Below, piece by piece: positions 333 to 6,813 of a stretch of 10,355 nucleotides of DNA (position 1 is the first letter of the stretch; the number at the start of each line of letters is the position of its first letter). The position numbers and the translations under genes are program-made. This stretch comes from Promethearchaeota archaeon (GTDB lineage Archaea; Asgardarchaeota; Lokiarchaeia; Sigynarchaeales; SOKP01): positions 1 through 10,355 of the forward strand of contig JAEOUI010000454.1 of the NCBI GenBank assembly GCA_016839425.1, read 5' to 3'. The notes under the pieces were generated by a model that saw only the letters and a program-made list of their open reading frames with translations, was not told where the DNA came from and ran no database searches.

Positions 333-2504
333 TTAAGCCCTGAATTTATCATATATTTCCAAGCGAAGCCATATGTCTCCTTTTTGACAGAAAATGTTAT
401 AATTCATAAAATAACCCTTGCTACCAAGCCCAAAACCTCCAAAATGCTCATTTTTACATATGTACCCTTCTTCTTTTAATATTATATTTATAAAATTAGA
501 AATGAATTGAAATTTCTCCATTGTAAGTTGAATTTCTTCTTGAGTTATTCGGTTTTTATCAAGGTGATATATAGTATTAGGTTTTTTGGAGTTCCAAATT
601 TCAATGTAAAACTTTTGCTCATCAATAAATCTTACCAGTTCATTATTATCCATATATGTGCTTTCCACTTTCCTAGATATGCCCAAATCGCCTCCTTCTC
701 CATTATATTGCACTTGAAAGAGGTTAAACTCTTGATTATCATCAAATTTCTTTTTTAAAATTTTAAAAAGTTCTTTTTTCAATGATTCTTCCGTGTAAAA
801 AGGTTTATTTAAAAACTTATTTAAGAAATCCTTTTTCTTTTCATTAGACAAGTCTAGTGAATTGATTTTAGACGGTTTTTTACAGAAGCTTAAAAACTGA
901 TCGTAAAACTGATAAGAAGCTTTGTTTTCAACGCCCCACTTAGTTATTTCAGATTCTGTTTTGACAAAATAACTAATCCTTTGGAAAAAAGCACCTGGTG
1001 CTCTGTTTTCAAGTCCTAAACTTGCAAGATCTATATTTTTAACTGCATCTTTAAAGGACCAGTAAAACTCTTTAGGTGCCCCATATTTCACACCTAACTT
1101 GATAAGCTCAGGATCCTCCTTATATTTATGAAGATGATTGTAAAATTCTTGGTCCACACAATACTTTAGAACGAGTCTTGCAAGCTCGACATTGTTGGAC
1201 AACTCATTAAACTTATTATAAAAATCTTCAGAAGCGTGATTTAATAATGCCAACTCTGCGAGCTGTTTATTCTCTTTTATGCAATCAAAGTTTTCATAGA
1301 AATCATCGGGTGCATTATTCTCAAGTCCCAATCTTGTCAGATCCTCATCCTCCAATAACTCGAAAAAATTTGAAAAAAATGATTTAGTAGCGTTTAATTT
1401 AACTCCTAGCTCAGCGAGTTCTGGATTAAATTTTAATTTATTAAAATTCATATAAAAATGTTTAGAAGCGTCGTTATCTAAAGCAAATAGAACAAGATTT
1501 TCGTTATTCTCGTAGAAGTTAATACTCTCATAGTAAGTATAAGGTGCCTTGCGTTTAAGTCCAATTTTTGCAAGTTTTTCGCATTTTTTAACTTTATCAA
1601 AGTATCTATAAAATTCGCTGGGGGCCTCGTTCTCTAATCCAACTATTGCAAGCTCTTCATCCATCAATAACTTTTCAAAATATTCGTAAAAATAAGATGG
1701 GGCTTTAAGTTCCAAACCCCGCTTTGCTAGCTTCTCTCCCTTTTTTATTATATCTAAATATTCATAAAAACTTTCTGGAGCCTCTTTTTCTACACCTAAT
1801 TTGGCAAGTTCCTCATATTTCTGTACATTTCTAAAATTATCATAAAATCTTGCTGGAGCGTTGTTAATCACTCCCCATCTCGCAAGAGGGATGTTCTGAC
1901 TAACTTGGTTAAAGTTCAAATAAATTTTATGGGTGGCTTTATTTTTCTTTGCAAATAATAATAACTCGATATCTGGAGTCTTAGCAGAGTCGTGCAATTT
2001 ATTTATTTCTTCTTCTGAAAGATAATAAAAGTAACTCTTTAATATTAAGAATAAGATTGTATTTTTGTTACCTTCCTCCACTCTTCGGATTATTTCTTCC
2101 TTTAATACCTTCTTTGCCATAGGATCTCCTATACTTGAGAGTTTTTCTAGCAAGGGAAAGGCAAAATTACTGTGAAGTAAACGCGTGTCGTAATCGTTTT
2201 CCGCCCACGCCTGTAATGTAGAGCAATACCCCCAAAACTCGTCTTCTGGATTAATCCTTGAATTAATTAATGCATTAGAATCATCGCCAGTCTTTTCAAG
2301 ATATTCTAAATCGTCTATGGATTGAATATTTTTGTTTATATCACCATCTTTCTCTTTAGAATTAAATGCAAGGCACTTGCATTGGAATAATTTTTCCCAC
2401 TTGTTTAAATAGATAGTAATTTCCGTTCCTTCCAATCTAACATCGATATAATCGTTAACCTCGAATTTCTTTATTCTTTCGTCTCGTATTATTAAAATAT
2501 TCAT
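333..2504 (-). CDS. Asgard-type repeat protein: conserved N-terminal domain plus about 14 tandem 26-residue repeats
   Basis: This encodes 723 residues from ATG 2504; an upstream in-frame TTG at 2534 would add ten. I prefer the ATG because the protein then opens MNILIIRDERIKKFEV. Residue numbers here count from the TTG. Residues 11-180 form an N-terminal domain with FWGYCSTLQAWAENDYDTRLL (100-120) and FPLLEKLSSIGDPMAKKVLKEE (126-147); from memory this domain precedes leucine-rich or other repeats in Lokiarchaeal/Thorarchaeal proteins. Residues 189-553 are about 14 tandem repeats, twelve of them exactly 26 residues long, with core ELAxLG(L/V) then APxxFYxxF. Each looks like a short two-helix unit, so an alpha-solenoid used for binding is likely. 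Residues 555-733 are a separate, unrecognised C-terminal domain rich in aromatic residues (IYHLDKNRIT, EHFGGFGLGSKGYF). There is no signal peptide or membrane segment, so it is probably cytosolic. Function unknown; a scaffold or binding role is inferred. Confidence 0.85.
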   Translation of the reverse strand: MNILIIRDERIKKFEVNDYIDVRLEGTEITIYLNKWEKLFQCKCLAFNSKEKDGDINKNIQSIDDLEYLEKTGDDSNALINSRINPEDEFWGYCSTLQAWAENDYDTRLLHSNFAFPLLEKLSSIGDPMAKKVLKEEIIRRVEEGNKNTILFLILKSYFYYLSEEEINKLHDSAKTPDIELLLFAKKNKATHKIYLNFNQVSQNIPLARWGVINNAPARFYDNFRNVQKYEELAKLGVEKEAPESFYEYLDIIKKGEKLAKRGLELKAPSYFYEYFEKLLMDEELAIVGLENEAPSEFYRYFDKVKKCEKLAKIGLKRKAPYTYYESINFYENNENLVLFALDNDASKHFYMNFNKLKFNPELAELGVKLNATKSFFSNFFELLEDEDLTRLGLENNAPDDFYENFDCIKENKQLAELALLNHASEDFYNKFNELSNNVELARLVLKYCVDQEFYNHLHKYKEDPELIKLGVKYGAPKEFYWSFKDAVKNIDLASLGLENRAPGAFFQRISYFVKTESEITKWGVENKASYQFYDQFLSFCKKPSKINSLDLSNEKKKDFLNKFLNKPFYTEESLKKELFKILKKKFDDNQEFNLFQVQYNGEGGDLGISRKVESTYMDNNELVRFIDEQKFYIEIWNSKKPNTIYHLDKNRITQEEIQLTMEKFQFISNFINIILKEEGYICKNEHFGGFGLGSKGYFMNYNIFCQKGDIWLRLEIYDKFRA
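876..1970 (-). repeat. Coding tandem repeat region, about 14 units of 78 bp (26 residues)
   Basis: Units 2-13 (residues 215-526 of the 733-residue reading) line up with an exact period of 26 and no gaps; unit 1 (189-214) and unit 14 (527-553) are slightly irregular. Near-invariant positions are Leu/Ala in ELA, Gly in LG, the Ala of AP, and the aromatic pair FY. The DNA of the units is well diverged, so this is an old protein repeat maintained by selection on structure and not a recent expansion. Confidence 0.85.
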
Positions 2505-2742: not shown

Positions 2743-2777
2743 TAATTATTTTTTATTTATACTTGAAAAGAGGTAAT

Positions 2778-4943
2778 ATGTTCGATATGTTAAAATCAAA
2801 GTTAAAAGAAAAAATGAAAATGAGCTTTAAAGGAGAGAATGGTTTTGTGAGGCTTTTTCTCGTGTTTATGTGTACTATCATTATTATACAATTATTTATC
2901 GTTCCAACTTATTTTGAAATTTTTAATGGTGGGTTTGTAGGCTATATGTTTTATGGTCTTATTTTTTATCATATCTATTATGGATATGGATTGTATTTTG
3001 AATTTCATCCTCAATATCATATAATACTTATGATTTTTGCTTTAATTCTATTAGTCTTGCTTACCATAAGGATTAATAAATTCAAAAAAAAGGAAATATT
3101 AATCATTGGAATCGTGACTTCCATTTTATTCTTGATTACTTTTAGTATAACTCTTTTTGTGAGCGTTGTAAATCAAAATTTTTTTATATCTTATATTTTC
3201 TTGGCCAACCTTCTAATGATACTTGTTTACGCCATTATCACGCTCGTTATTACTTTTCAATTATCCAAAAAACCCTATAAATCTAATAAGATAAAGAAAG
3301 TTTCCTTGAGGAAAAATCAACTTGAATCTTCAATCTATTTTATGCGAATGCTTTTTTTAGTTCTTGCTATCTTATTGATCATTCAATTTTTCATACCAAC
3401 CTTTATATCAATCAATTTTTATAGCTATACTCCATTATTCTGTATGTATTTTTTCTGTGGAATATTCTTCATTTTAGACGGAAGCGGAACATCCTACATT
3501 TCTTTTGATCCTATTAGTCTCTTTCAAATAATACCTCAGATTATTGCATTGGTATTAATCATTGTACTGATCGTAAAATTAAGAACACTCGATAGGAGGC
3601 AAATTCTTTCTTTAGGAATCGGAAGTGCAATTTTTCTCATTCTCTCTCCGTTCTTGTATTTCGGAGTATATCATGAGATAGGTGGCTCATTTGCTCCATT
3701 TATTACTATTAGTTATTTTAATCTTCATTTTAATATTTTTTGTGTACTTTTCATTCTTTTAGGAACTATTTATATCTCAAAAAGAGCTAAACCATCATAT
3801 TACATTATCGCTCGAAAATTAGCGATAATTATATATAAGTATCGCGTAGAAGTCGTTGCATTTTCGGCCTTTTTTATTTATTTATTAGTACTGAGAATCC
3901 TTACTCCTTTTTATGTGGTTTATCAAAACAGTTTTCTCGATTGGGATATGTATTTGATGATGTCAAGGGACATTACTTCCTTATTTAAAAGACAAATTGT
4001 TGCTCCATTTTGTTATAGACCTTTAATACCAATTTTAGCGGGGATATTACCTTTTGACTTACAAACGAGCTACGCTATTATTATTTTCTTTTCTGTTTAT
4101 TTTACGGGAATATTATTGTACCTGACCCTCCGGTTAAAATTTAGAAAATTCATTAGTTTAATAGGTTTGTTATTGTTCATATTCCTAAGTTATATTCCAG
4201 AAGCAAGCTTGATATCTTTAGGTCCATATAATCTTGGATTTATCAACGCTGCCTTTCTTTTCGTATATTTTGTTGATTTTCCTGCTGGATTTTTCTTAAT
4301 GGCCTGTTTTTTTTGCATTTTTTCTCGAAGAAAAAAAGGATTTCTAATTTGTTTATTATTTGGAACTCTAACGAAAGAGATCGTTCTTGGAACAATTCCT
4401 GTATTTTTAGCTTATGAAATAATGATAAATCAAGACCCACGGAATATTAAAAACATGGGAAATATTTTATTAAAAAATACTAAATATTTTGCTCCTGGAA
4501 TTTGTGCCTATCTCTTATTACGCCTTATTGTAATTCCCATTCCCGTTATAGAGACATCTTGGCATGGATCTTACAACAATAGCGATTACGGTTCCATCGG
4601 AATGTTTTTAGTTTTTTGGGATATGAGAATAAACGAAATATTAAATGGCAATGCGCTTTACGATTGGCTCATTGGTGTTTGGAGTCCTATGATCATTGCT
4701 CTTTGCTGTTTGAATAATTTGAAAAGATTAAAACGCTGGTTCGCTATATTTGGTATATTTGTATTGTTTTGCTATGCTCAAATATTTCTGGGTTTTGCGA
4801 CTTCTAGATATATAATATTTAGTTTTTACCCAATTATATTCTTAGCTGTTTCAGGCTTGGATAGAACTATTAATGTAAAATTATTACAAGAATACCACGA
4901 GTATTATTATATTGAAGTAGAAATCAATTCAATAAAACCATAA
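2778..4943 (+). CDS. Polytopic membrane protein, GT-C-like glycosyltransferase fold candidate with duplicated N-terminal half
   Basis: This encodes 721 residues from ATG 2778; an in-frame TTG at 2763 would give 726. Purine-rich AAGAGGT (2768-2774) lies only three bases before the ATG, so ATG 2787 is also possible. Numbering here is from the TTG. Residues 28-168 and 196-340 look like two copies of the same membrane module: each opens with a helix of type LFLV..IIIQ.F(I)xPT, has a helix pair joined by a short basic turn (KFKKKEIL; TLDRRQIL), and closes with a helix and basic tail. Residues 364-700 form a second membrane region with DWDMYLMMSRD (393-403) after its first helix, YRPLIPILA (418-426), TKE (537-539) and SRYIIFSFYP (681-690). 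An acidic loop after the first helix followed by Arg-Pro-Leu is what I would expect of a GT-C enzyme using a lipid-linked sugar. That class call is tentative. A methyltransferase follows 21 bases later. Confidence 0.8.
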   Translation: MFDMLKSKLKEKMKMSFKGENGFVRLFLVFMCTIIIIQLFIVPTYFEIFNGGFVGYMFYGLIFYHIYYGYGLYFEFHPQYHIILMIFALILLVLLTIRINKFKKKEILIIGIVTSILFLITFSITLFVSVVNQNFFISYIFLANLLMILVYAIITLVITFQLSKKPYKSNKIKKVSLRKNQLESSIYFMRMLFLVLAILLIIQFFIPTFISINFYSYTPLFCMYFFCGIFFILDGSGTSYISFDPISLFQIIPQIIALVLIIVLIVKLRTLDRRQILSLGIGSAIFLILSPFLYFGVYHEIGGSFAPFITISYFNLHFNIFCVLFILLGTIYISKRAKPSYYIIARKLAIIIYKYRVEVVAFSAFFIYLLVLRILTPFYVVYQNSFLDWDMYLMMSRDITSLFKRQIVAPFCYRPLIPILAGILPFDLQTSYAIIIFFSVYFTGILLYLTLRLKFRKFISLIGLLLFIFLSYIPEASLISLGPYNLGFINAAFLFVYFVDFPAGFFLMACFFCIFSRRKKGFLICLLFGTLTKEIVLGTIPVFLAYEIMINQDPRNIKNMGNILLKNTKYFAPGICAYLLLRLIVIPIPVIETSWHGSYNNSDYGSIGMFLVFWDMRINEILNGNALYDWLIGVWSPMIIALCCLNNLKRLKRWFAIFGIFVLFCYAQIFLGFATSRYIIFSFYPIIFLAVSGLDRTINVKLLQEYHEYYYIEVEINSIKP

Positions 4944-5815: not shown

Positions 5816-5834
5816 GGATCTCACCATAAGATCC
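5816..5834. terminator. Short hairpin between convergent genes, overlapping a stop codon
   Basis: GGATCT (5816-5821) and AGATCC (5829-5834) form a 6-bp perfect stem with a 7-base loop. The loop covers most of the minus-strand gene's TGA (5821-5823), and the stem begins 18 bases after the methyltransferase stop. No T-run follows closely, so it may be a weak terminator or a 3'-end processing/stability element. Confidence 0.35.
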
Positions 5835-6261
5835 AACCCGTAATCGTGCAATTTACTCGCGATATATTATGTGATTCGATTTCTGTTATGCTTCCTGCTT
5901 CCACATTCTCCAGTGAAATGTCAATAGAATTTGAAATTTTTAGTTCTTTTTTAATCTTAATATCTTGGATAACACTACTAGAACACTTTTCTAACTCCAA
6001 CCTTTTGGCTTTTATATTTTTAAAAGCAATATTTTCACAATTTTGGAGCTTGATACCTCTAACTTGGATATTATCGACTATGAGGTGTTCCTTAGATTCT
6101 GAAATGAGAATTACTACTCGCCCCATATCCCGATTTGAATTGTCTGGTATTATCATATAAGGATCTTGACTAGTTCCCTTTCCCGATAGTTCAATGTTAA
6201 AAGAGGAAAAACTTTCATTTCTCGTTTTACATGTATTATCTATCGTAATCATTATTTTCAT
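5821..6261 (-). CDS. Small beta-solenoid protein with 19-residue rungs (paralogue 1)
   Basis: This encodes 146 residues from ATG 6261; a TTG at 6270 would add three. The ATG is preferred because MKIMITIDN then aligns with MNIKITHDDN of the neighbouring paralogue and the promoter spacing matches. Numbering here is from the TTG. The N-terminal part has SGKGTSQDPYMI (29-40), a Gly-x-Gly-Thr...Pro-Tyr signature often seen at the beginning of right-handed parallel beta-helix domains. VVILISESKEHLIVDNIQV (52-70) follows, then rungs at about 72-90, 91-109, 110-128 and 129-146. Each rung has hydrophobics alternating around an Asn/Lys-Cys/Ser corner (LQNC, LEKC, ISNS, IESH). No signal peptide or membrane segment is present, so it is probably cytosolic. 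Too short for a catalytic pectate-lyase-type enzyme; a binding or structural role is inferred. Function unknown. Confidence 0.75.
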   Translation of the reverse strand: MKIMITIDNTCKTRNESFSSFNIELSGKGTSQDPYMIIPDNSNRDMGRVVILISESKEHLIVDNIQVRGIKLQNCENIAFKNIKAKRLELEKCSSSVIQDIKIKKELKISNSIDISLENVEAGSITEIESHNISRVNCTITGWILW

Positions 6262-6289
6262 ACTTATCAATCCTAAGAATCTATTTATG

Positions 6290-6384: not shown

Positions 6385-6813
6385 TCAACTTTTTTTAACC
6401 TGGCAATTCTTGAGCGATGTGTTTTGGTTTTCGAATTCGAGGAGTTTTTTTGCTACAACATCTTCAAGCGAAATGTCAATGGATCTGTAAACTTTAATCT
6501 TTTTTTTTATCACTGCATCTTGAATTTTGCAATTTAAACATTCATTTAACTCAAGCAATTTTGCTTTTGAATGCTTTAATATTATATTTTCGCAATTCAC
6601 GAGATTAATGGCTTTTACTTGTATGTTATCGATCACGAGATGATCCTTGGAATCTGAAATAAGAATTACTACACTGCTGAAAACTAGAATTGAATTGTCT
6701 CGCATTACATAAGGTTCTTGATTCGTTCCCTTTCCTGTTAGTTCAAAATTGAAAAAATTTAGACCACTATAACGCATTAAATAATTATCATCGTGTGTAA
6801 TTTTTATATTCAT
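6385..6813 (-). CDS. Small beta-solenoid protein with 19-residue rungs (paralogue 2)
   Basis: This encodes 142 residues from ATG 6813. It is a tandem paralogue of the gene downstream (5821-6261). Shared blocks include TGKGTNQEPYVM (26-37) with its counterpart SGKGTSQDPYMI, VVILISDSKDHLVIDNIQV (48-66), NCENI (73-77), and SIDISLEDV (111-119), with only conservative changes. After the N-terminal cap the sequence falls into 19-residue rungs (about 69-87, 88-106, 107-125 and 126-142) with the same hydrophobic alternation and polar corners (LVNC, LNEC, VYRS, FENQ). It lacks a signal peptide and membrane segments. The final rung ends in a basic KKS tail, whereas its paralogue ends in the hydrophobic GWILW, so the C-terminal caps differ. 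Its own promoter lies immediately upstream, so the pair is duplicated with regulation and is not simply one operon. Function unknown. Confidence 0.75.
   Translation of the reverse strand: MNIKITHDDNYLMRYSGLNFFNFELTGKGTNQEPYVMRDNSILVFSSVVILISDSKDHLVIDNIQVKAINLVNCENIILKHSKAKLLELNECLNCKIQDAVIKKKIKVYRSIDISLEDVVAKKLLEFENQNTSLKNCQVKKS

Follow-up and report, generated by a model that had tools for sequence, protein, structure and literature searches.

A 26-residue tandem repeat of Lokiarchaeal proteins, predicted to form an alpha-solenoid

A tandem array in a 723-residue protein

The window analyzed here, the whole stretch of 10,355 nucleotides at positions 1 to 10,355 of contig JAEOUI010000454.1 from a Promethearchaeota archaeon (assembly GCA_016839425.1), carries on its minus strand a protein-coding gene of 723 amino acids (aa) at 333..2504, with an ATG at 2504 and a stop codon at 333-335. 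At the center of the encoded protein lies an array (aa 179-543; 876..1970, minus) in which a 26-residue unit occurs 14 times, as delimited by sequence analysis and structural models. This array is preceded by an N-terminal domain (hereafter, N-domain) of about aa 1-172 (1989..2504, minus), recognized from tblastn and profile matches and from the model, in which strands are followed by helices; the domain has a conserved EFWG motif at aa 89. The array is followed by a short cap (aa 547-564, INSLDLSNEKKKDFLNKF; 813..866, minus), identified from alignments with relatives, a pattern test, and the model, and by a C-terminal part (aa 571-723; 336..794, minus) for which no relatives were found and no fold was predicted by the model.

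Comparison of aa 171-540 with themselves yielded mean BLOSUM62 scores of 1.22, 1.16, and 1.08 at offsets of 26, 52, and 78, respectively; the next-best offset scored -0.55, and across 500 shuffles the maximum was -0.32. A position-specific matrix recovered 14 units in the protein, with 12 of the 13 steps between them equal to 26 residues and the last equal to 27. The divergent end unit 1 (aa 179-204; 1893..1970, minus) and the gap-free units 2-13 (aa 205-516; 957..1892, minus) are supported by both autocorrelation and the matrix, and unit 14 (aa 518-543; 876..953, minus), which lies past a one-residue slip, by the matrix. The boundaries of 876..1970 given in a first-pass annotation of the DNA were borne out, as was its count of about 14 copies; its description of the repeat as exact does not hold, given the last step, and the ungapped run that it placed at twelve units comprises 13. 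At the DNA level, mean pairwise identity between units is 49.4%, and Tandem Repeats Finder reported no tandem array at the repeat DNA in the window. Because the units have diverged to this extent, they appear to be old duplications kept at the protein level rather than products of recent slippage.

Members and organization of the repeat family

With the array as query against about 5.8 billion proteins, a match was obtained to P0001 (1111 aa, E 5.7e-54), the sole protein recovered by the first two protein searches, and an alignment search added nine more relatives (P0002-P0010; E 7.1e-129 to 3.8e-29), including P0010 from a Promethearchaeota archaeon. The protein relatives thus number at least 10, with about 8000 candidates scored in each of three protein searches; a scan of genome contigs with alignment A2 found none. 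Profile searches were also made in 227 genomes of the phylum of G006, a Candidatus Lokiarchaeota assembly and the genome of locus L006. Intact arrays were detected in 2 of the 227 (G006 and G104), the array open reading frame (ORF) of G006 (locus L021) being the same protein as P0002, and an improved profile matched 3, the third (G119) containing a relic of two units. It should be noted that these counts are lower bounds, since some of the genomes are incomplete. The relic (L073, about 1289-1444; G119:C20:58288-58443) has an in-frame stop inside it and, judged from its sequence, is a decayed copy of the repeat. It lies directly after a gene that, by eye, has TPR-like sequence. No description of the repeat was found in the accessible parts of the open-licence literature, including those of PMC8078820 and PMC13055192.

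The repeat forms a family in which 105 units were counted across 14 sequences (proteins or fragments), excluding P0002 as a duplicate of the L021 ORF and units scoring below 12 (for example, a unit of L021 with a score of 10.5 that carries an insertion). Unit-to-unit spacing is exactly 26 residues in 84 of 91 steps, and the consensus of the 105 units is [IVP]ELAKWGVQNNAPxxFYxNFDKLxEN. The best-conserved columns are Phe16 (94%), Tyr17 and Ala12 (82% each), Leu3 (79%), and Gly7 and Phe20 (73% each), followed by Ala4 (70%), Pro13 and Asn10 (69% each), and Trp6 (62%), and positions 14, 15, and 18 are the least informative. The motif first proposed, ELAxLG(L/V) followed by APxxFYxxF, is correct for the window protein, although across the family Trp is the preferred residue at position 6. 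The number of units per protein varies from 4 to 16 (13 proteins, fragment L024 excluded), indicating that units have been gained or lost. In P0003 and P0004, units are more alike within the protein (51% and 47%) than to units of other proteins (40% and 38%), the pattern that recent duplication of units would leave; the corresponding values for the window protein are 32% and 33%.

The order of N-domain followed by array is common to the window protein, P0001-P0003, P0005-P0010, and the ORFs of L022 and L023, and the EFWG motif is present in 12 of the 13 repeat proteins compared. The exception is P0004, in which seven units stand behind another N-terminal part (HEAT-like by eye); since P0004 lacks the motif, the repeat is evidently able to occur apart from the N-domain. 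In relatives, too, the last unit is followed by a short cap, of the INSLxxSxEKKxxFLxxF type. Expressed as a strict pattern, composed after the alignment had been inspected, it occurs in 7 of 13 proteins versus 2 of 3900 shuffles, and a version recognizable by eye stands behind the array in all of the 13 but P0001 and the L023 ORF (11 of 13). In the model of the window protein, the cap includes a helix at 554-564.

The variation in unit number, the TPRs that lie downstream of the array and outside it in P0001, and the 180 residues that follow the array in the window protein would each suit a passive rod or spacer, ligand-free itself, that fixes how far the N-domain stands from a downstream part. 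This is considered unlikely, however, because in 10 of the 14 sequences (proteins or fragments) the chain ends 22-31 residues past the array, leaving little to hold apart, and because variability is very uneven between positions of the unit. In the window protein, the C-terminal part has no match over a cut-off in Pfam or NCBIfam and a predicted local distance difference test score (pLDDT) below 50 in the model. It also has no match in the 227 genomes, in a search that yielded no positive and whose empty answer therefore shows nothing. The earlier designation of this part as a unique C-terminal domain is consistent with the absence of matches, but its status as a folded domain is unsupported.

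Predicted structure and comparison with known repeats

The array is predicted to be an alpha-solenoid of tandemly stacked helical units. In AlphaFold2 models of the whole protein, blocks of the array have pLDDT values of 86-98, dropping to 72 at the slip, and the best model of a seven-unit piece reached 96.6. Each modelled unit comprises a 9-residue helix, a loop, and a helix broken in two. The models therefore contain a repeating helical unit, as the first-pass annotation anticipated, but with three short helices rather than the two that it envisaged.

Searches of solved structures in the PDB with both models using Foldseek returned none at E<=0.001. Among natural proteins, TAL effectors and BurrH gave the top Z values against the whole model, reaching 5.3; a chain of the MTERF4-NSUN4 complex scored lower, at 3.0. 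These matches raise the alternative that the array reads nucleic acid, with stacked units touching a linear polymer stepwise as in TALE or mTERF proteins. This is regarded as very improbable. TAL effector and BurrH units are 33-35 residues long versus a period of 26 here, root-mean-square deviations are about 10-17 A, and the seven-unit model gave no such match. Matches to designed helical repeat proteins (8v2d, 8ugc, DHR8) concern man-made molecules and, at this Z, may reflect a common helical arrangement only. The leucine-rich variant (LRV) structure 1LRV is present in the PDB and was not among the Foldseek matches of the models, an absence that does not exclude likeness.

Neither the window protein nor the ten relatives in alignment A9 have a match over a cut-off in Pfam or NCBIfam, and PADLOC, applied to the window protein, had none. 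TPR, ankyrin, Sel1, HEAT, and Armadillo families are absent from the Pfam rows of the window protein (E<=1) and of its array (E<=10). The view that the repeat is not assignable to a known repeat family is thus upheld, with no strong profile match to an existing family found in either library. The further suggestion that it is closest to LRV is not. The LRV period is 24 residues, and the two share a short tandem unit of about 24-26 residues with a helix, a proline-bearing turn, and a second short helical element (PF01816, 1LRV); the new repeat differs in having WG in the first helix and FY in the second and in its own regular period. This likeness is one of pattern only, as no LRV row appears in the window protein or the ten A9 relatives (E<=1) or in the array or a ten-unit consensus (E<=10). 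DUF4116 (PF13475), a two-helix unit of comparable length and comparable order of conserved positions, is slightly closer; its best score is 13.3 bits (E 0.061, block from P0001), with a second sub-threshold row of 10.0 bits in P0004, versus a cut-off of 24.9 bits. Since consensus sequences of LRV and DUF4116 were recognized in Pfam (E 5.2e-31 and 158.7 bits, respectively), both profiles work.

A less likely reading is that the repeat belongs to these short two-helix repeats as a very divergent member, not an independent family, and is missed by profiles because the units are short. The LRV and DUF4116 consensus sequences have the same order of features (helix, N/G/P turn, second helix, about 24-26 residues), the two DUF4116 rows are the only repeat-family Pfam rows in real members, and a short hhalign match is in consistent register. 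Against this, neither family appears at E<=10 for the consensus array of ten units, although their own profiles recognize the LRV and DUF4116 consensus sequences. In hhalign, alignment A10 reached 0.05% probability with 1LRV residues 62-192 (equal to a TPR control at 0.05%), 0.07% with the LRV consensus, and 0.29% with that of DUF4116, as opposed to 99.8% for A3 with P0004, both from the repeat family; with single sequences on one side, these comparisons are weak tests. No solved member of DUF4116 was found at E<=0.01 using its consensus. Family searches in G006 (0 of 1 genome for each family) were uninformative for DUF4116, for which 14 control genomes were likewise empty, and negative for LRV, for which one control genome was positive. 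The best reading is therefore that of a new, so far unassigned family of the known alpha-solenoid kind, as predicted by the models, which would serve as an exchangeable binding scaffold and may work like LRV or DUF4116 arrays; no membership in either family is claimed.

Several other matches were set aside. Rows for COX6C, CBM_10, DUF2795, and other Pfam families, and for phrog_22466 and other PHROGs, in typed consensus arrays were judged to be artefacts of many identical units, in which the scores of weak pieces add up with each repetition. COX6C has in common a short stretch around A-x-x-F-Y-x-N-x-D and was rejected as chance; its E values were 0.066 for the window protein, 0.0015 (19.1 bits, cut-off 22) for the P0001 block, and 0.11-0.19 for the real profile A10 with PDB sequences. 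Other sub-threshold Pfam rows in the ten A9 relatives include CAP_N in P0003 (E 0.00028, 21.4 bits, cut-off 27) and CobT_C in two proteins (best E 0.016).

A match of the window protein to phrog_26570, a phage family of unknown function (aa 205-238; 1791-1892, minus; 31.8 bits, E 2.3e-7) speaks against the repeat having no relative at all. The same family matched the consensus array (E 5.5e-8), where single stretches did not pass alone, and did not match P0001 at E<=1. In tblastn against 50,697 phage records, the whole window protein gave nothing at E<=0.01, a 78-residue consensus matched one place (E 6), and a 34-residue piece matched ten records (E 2 to 4) annotated, where annotations are given, as proteins of porphyrin or cobalamin biosynthesis or as a portal protein. 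Without backing from phage records, the phrog_26570 match is left unexplained. Viral contigs contained no relatives of the window protein or P0003 when these were used as queries; with A9 as query, two IMG/VR contigs were found, where only the N-domain was seen. Foldseek returned no viral model at E<=0.001. Among plasmids, the N-domain occurs on one record (LC711081, uncultured archaeon), and the repeat consensus found none.

A common N-terminal platform and a proposed binding scaffold

In Pfam, the N-domain of the window protein lies within no match that passes a cut-off. A scan of genome contigs with A1 identified relatives of this domain at six Lokiarchaeota loci (37-46% identity), and it was detected in 70 of the 227 genomes (E<=1e-8), with at least 16 matches in the richest, in agreement with its initial description as an Asgard-type domain. 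The loci concerned are L001-L007, L025, L026, and L043-L082. Such relatives also point to a Lokiarchaeal origin of the window. To sample its fusions, one locus each was taken from 40 of the 70 genomes, and a motif search recovered 31 ORFs, some incomplete at the end of a stretch or contig, from 30 of the 40 loci. Among the best 25 of 30 families at E<=1e-4, the modules in these ORFs were LRR_4 (18) and LRR_8 (18), and more rarely zinc ribbons (3), a TPR (1), and a Ras/Roc GTPase (1). For five short N-domain ORFs, Pfam was empty at E<=0.001, and the 26-residue repeat matrix found no unit scoring above 5 in any of the 31. Lokiarchaeal proteins with leucine-rich repeats, TPRs, and other modules thus have the N-domain in common with the window protein and differ in what lies behind it. 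The picture, as drawn from sequence comparison, is that of a Lokiarchaeal family in which one platform is combined with exchangeable modules, the 26-residue repeat presumably being one of several recognition modules on it.

Taken together, the N-domain, the 14 units, the short cap, and the unmatched C-terminal part would constitute a scaffold protein. In the models, units appear to stack into a continuous alpha-solenoid, each with a putative helix A at positions 1-9, a loop at 10-13 ending in Ala-Pro, and a second helix (14-18 and 20-25) broken at 19, with Asn/Asp 26 ahead of the next unit. The core would be built from the conserved Leu3, Trp/Leu6, Val8, Phe16, Tyr17, Phe20, and Leu23. The positions that vary most (14, 15, and 18, then 24 and 22) may run along the array as an exposed ribbon and bind a partner, which is probably a protein or peptide. 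Specificity would then be tuned by the number of units and by their surface residues, and the N-domain would keep the job that it has in related fusions to leucine-rich repeats, TPRs, and other modules. A probability of roughly 0.6 is assigned to this reading as a whole, namely a three-part Lokiarchaeal scaffold with a solenoid array and a partner-binding ribbon.

Two observations weigh against it. First, exposure of the variable positions is deduced from the helix pattern, and the charged consensus positions (E2, K5, D21, K22, and E25) point to no clear ligand. Second, the alignments behind the models are shallow (17 and 10 rows). Of the five seven-unit models, three have a mean pLDDT of 74-80, and the five whole-protein models span means of 76.1 to 63.8.

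A strict-period repeat with a clear consensus that is absent from the libraries searched is unusual, and its distribution is rare and patchy on an N-domain that is common in Lokiarchaeia. More tentatively, the three-helix unit might represent a new natural repeat fold and not just a new sequence family. It would then have originated in Lokiarchaeia, as a counterpart to the leucine-rich repeats found on the common N-terminal platform, and would provide exchangeable recognition of variable length. If the scaffold reading is true, the repeat would extend by one module the interaction repertoire of these eukaryote-related archaea, recognition modules would be swapped on one platform, and the compact consensus could be used in repeat-protein design. 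A profile of the repeat would let annotators recognize such "hypothetical proteins".

The neighboring genes encode a methyltransferase, an NAD(P)H-hydrate repair enzyme, a membrane protein, two small paralogues, and a zinc-ribbon protein, and offer no functional clue to the repeat protein; no tRNA was found in the window, and no Rfam family reached its gathering score there. The membrane protein (726 aa; 2763-4943, plus) is multi-pass by eye and has no Pfam or NCBIfam rows at E<=1. The adjacent paralogues, so judged by eye (149 and 142 aa; 5821-6270 and 6385-6813, minus), have no Pfam match over a cut-off and display a regular pattern that is beta-solenoid-like by eye.
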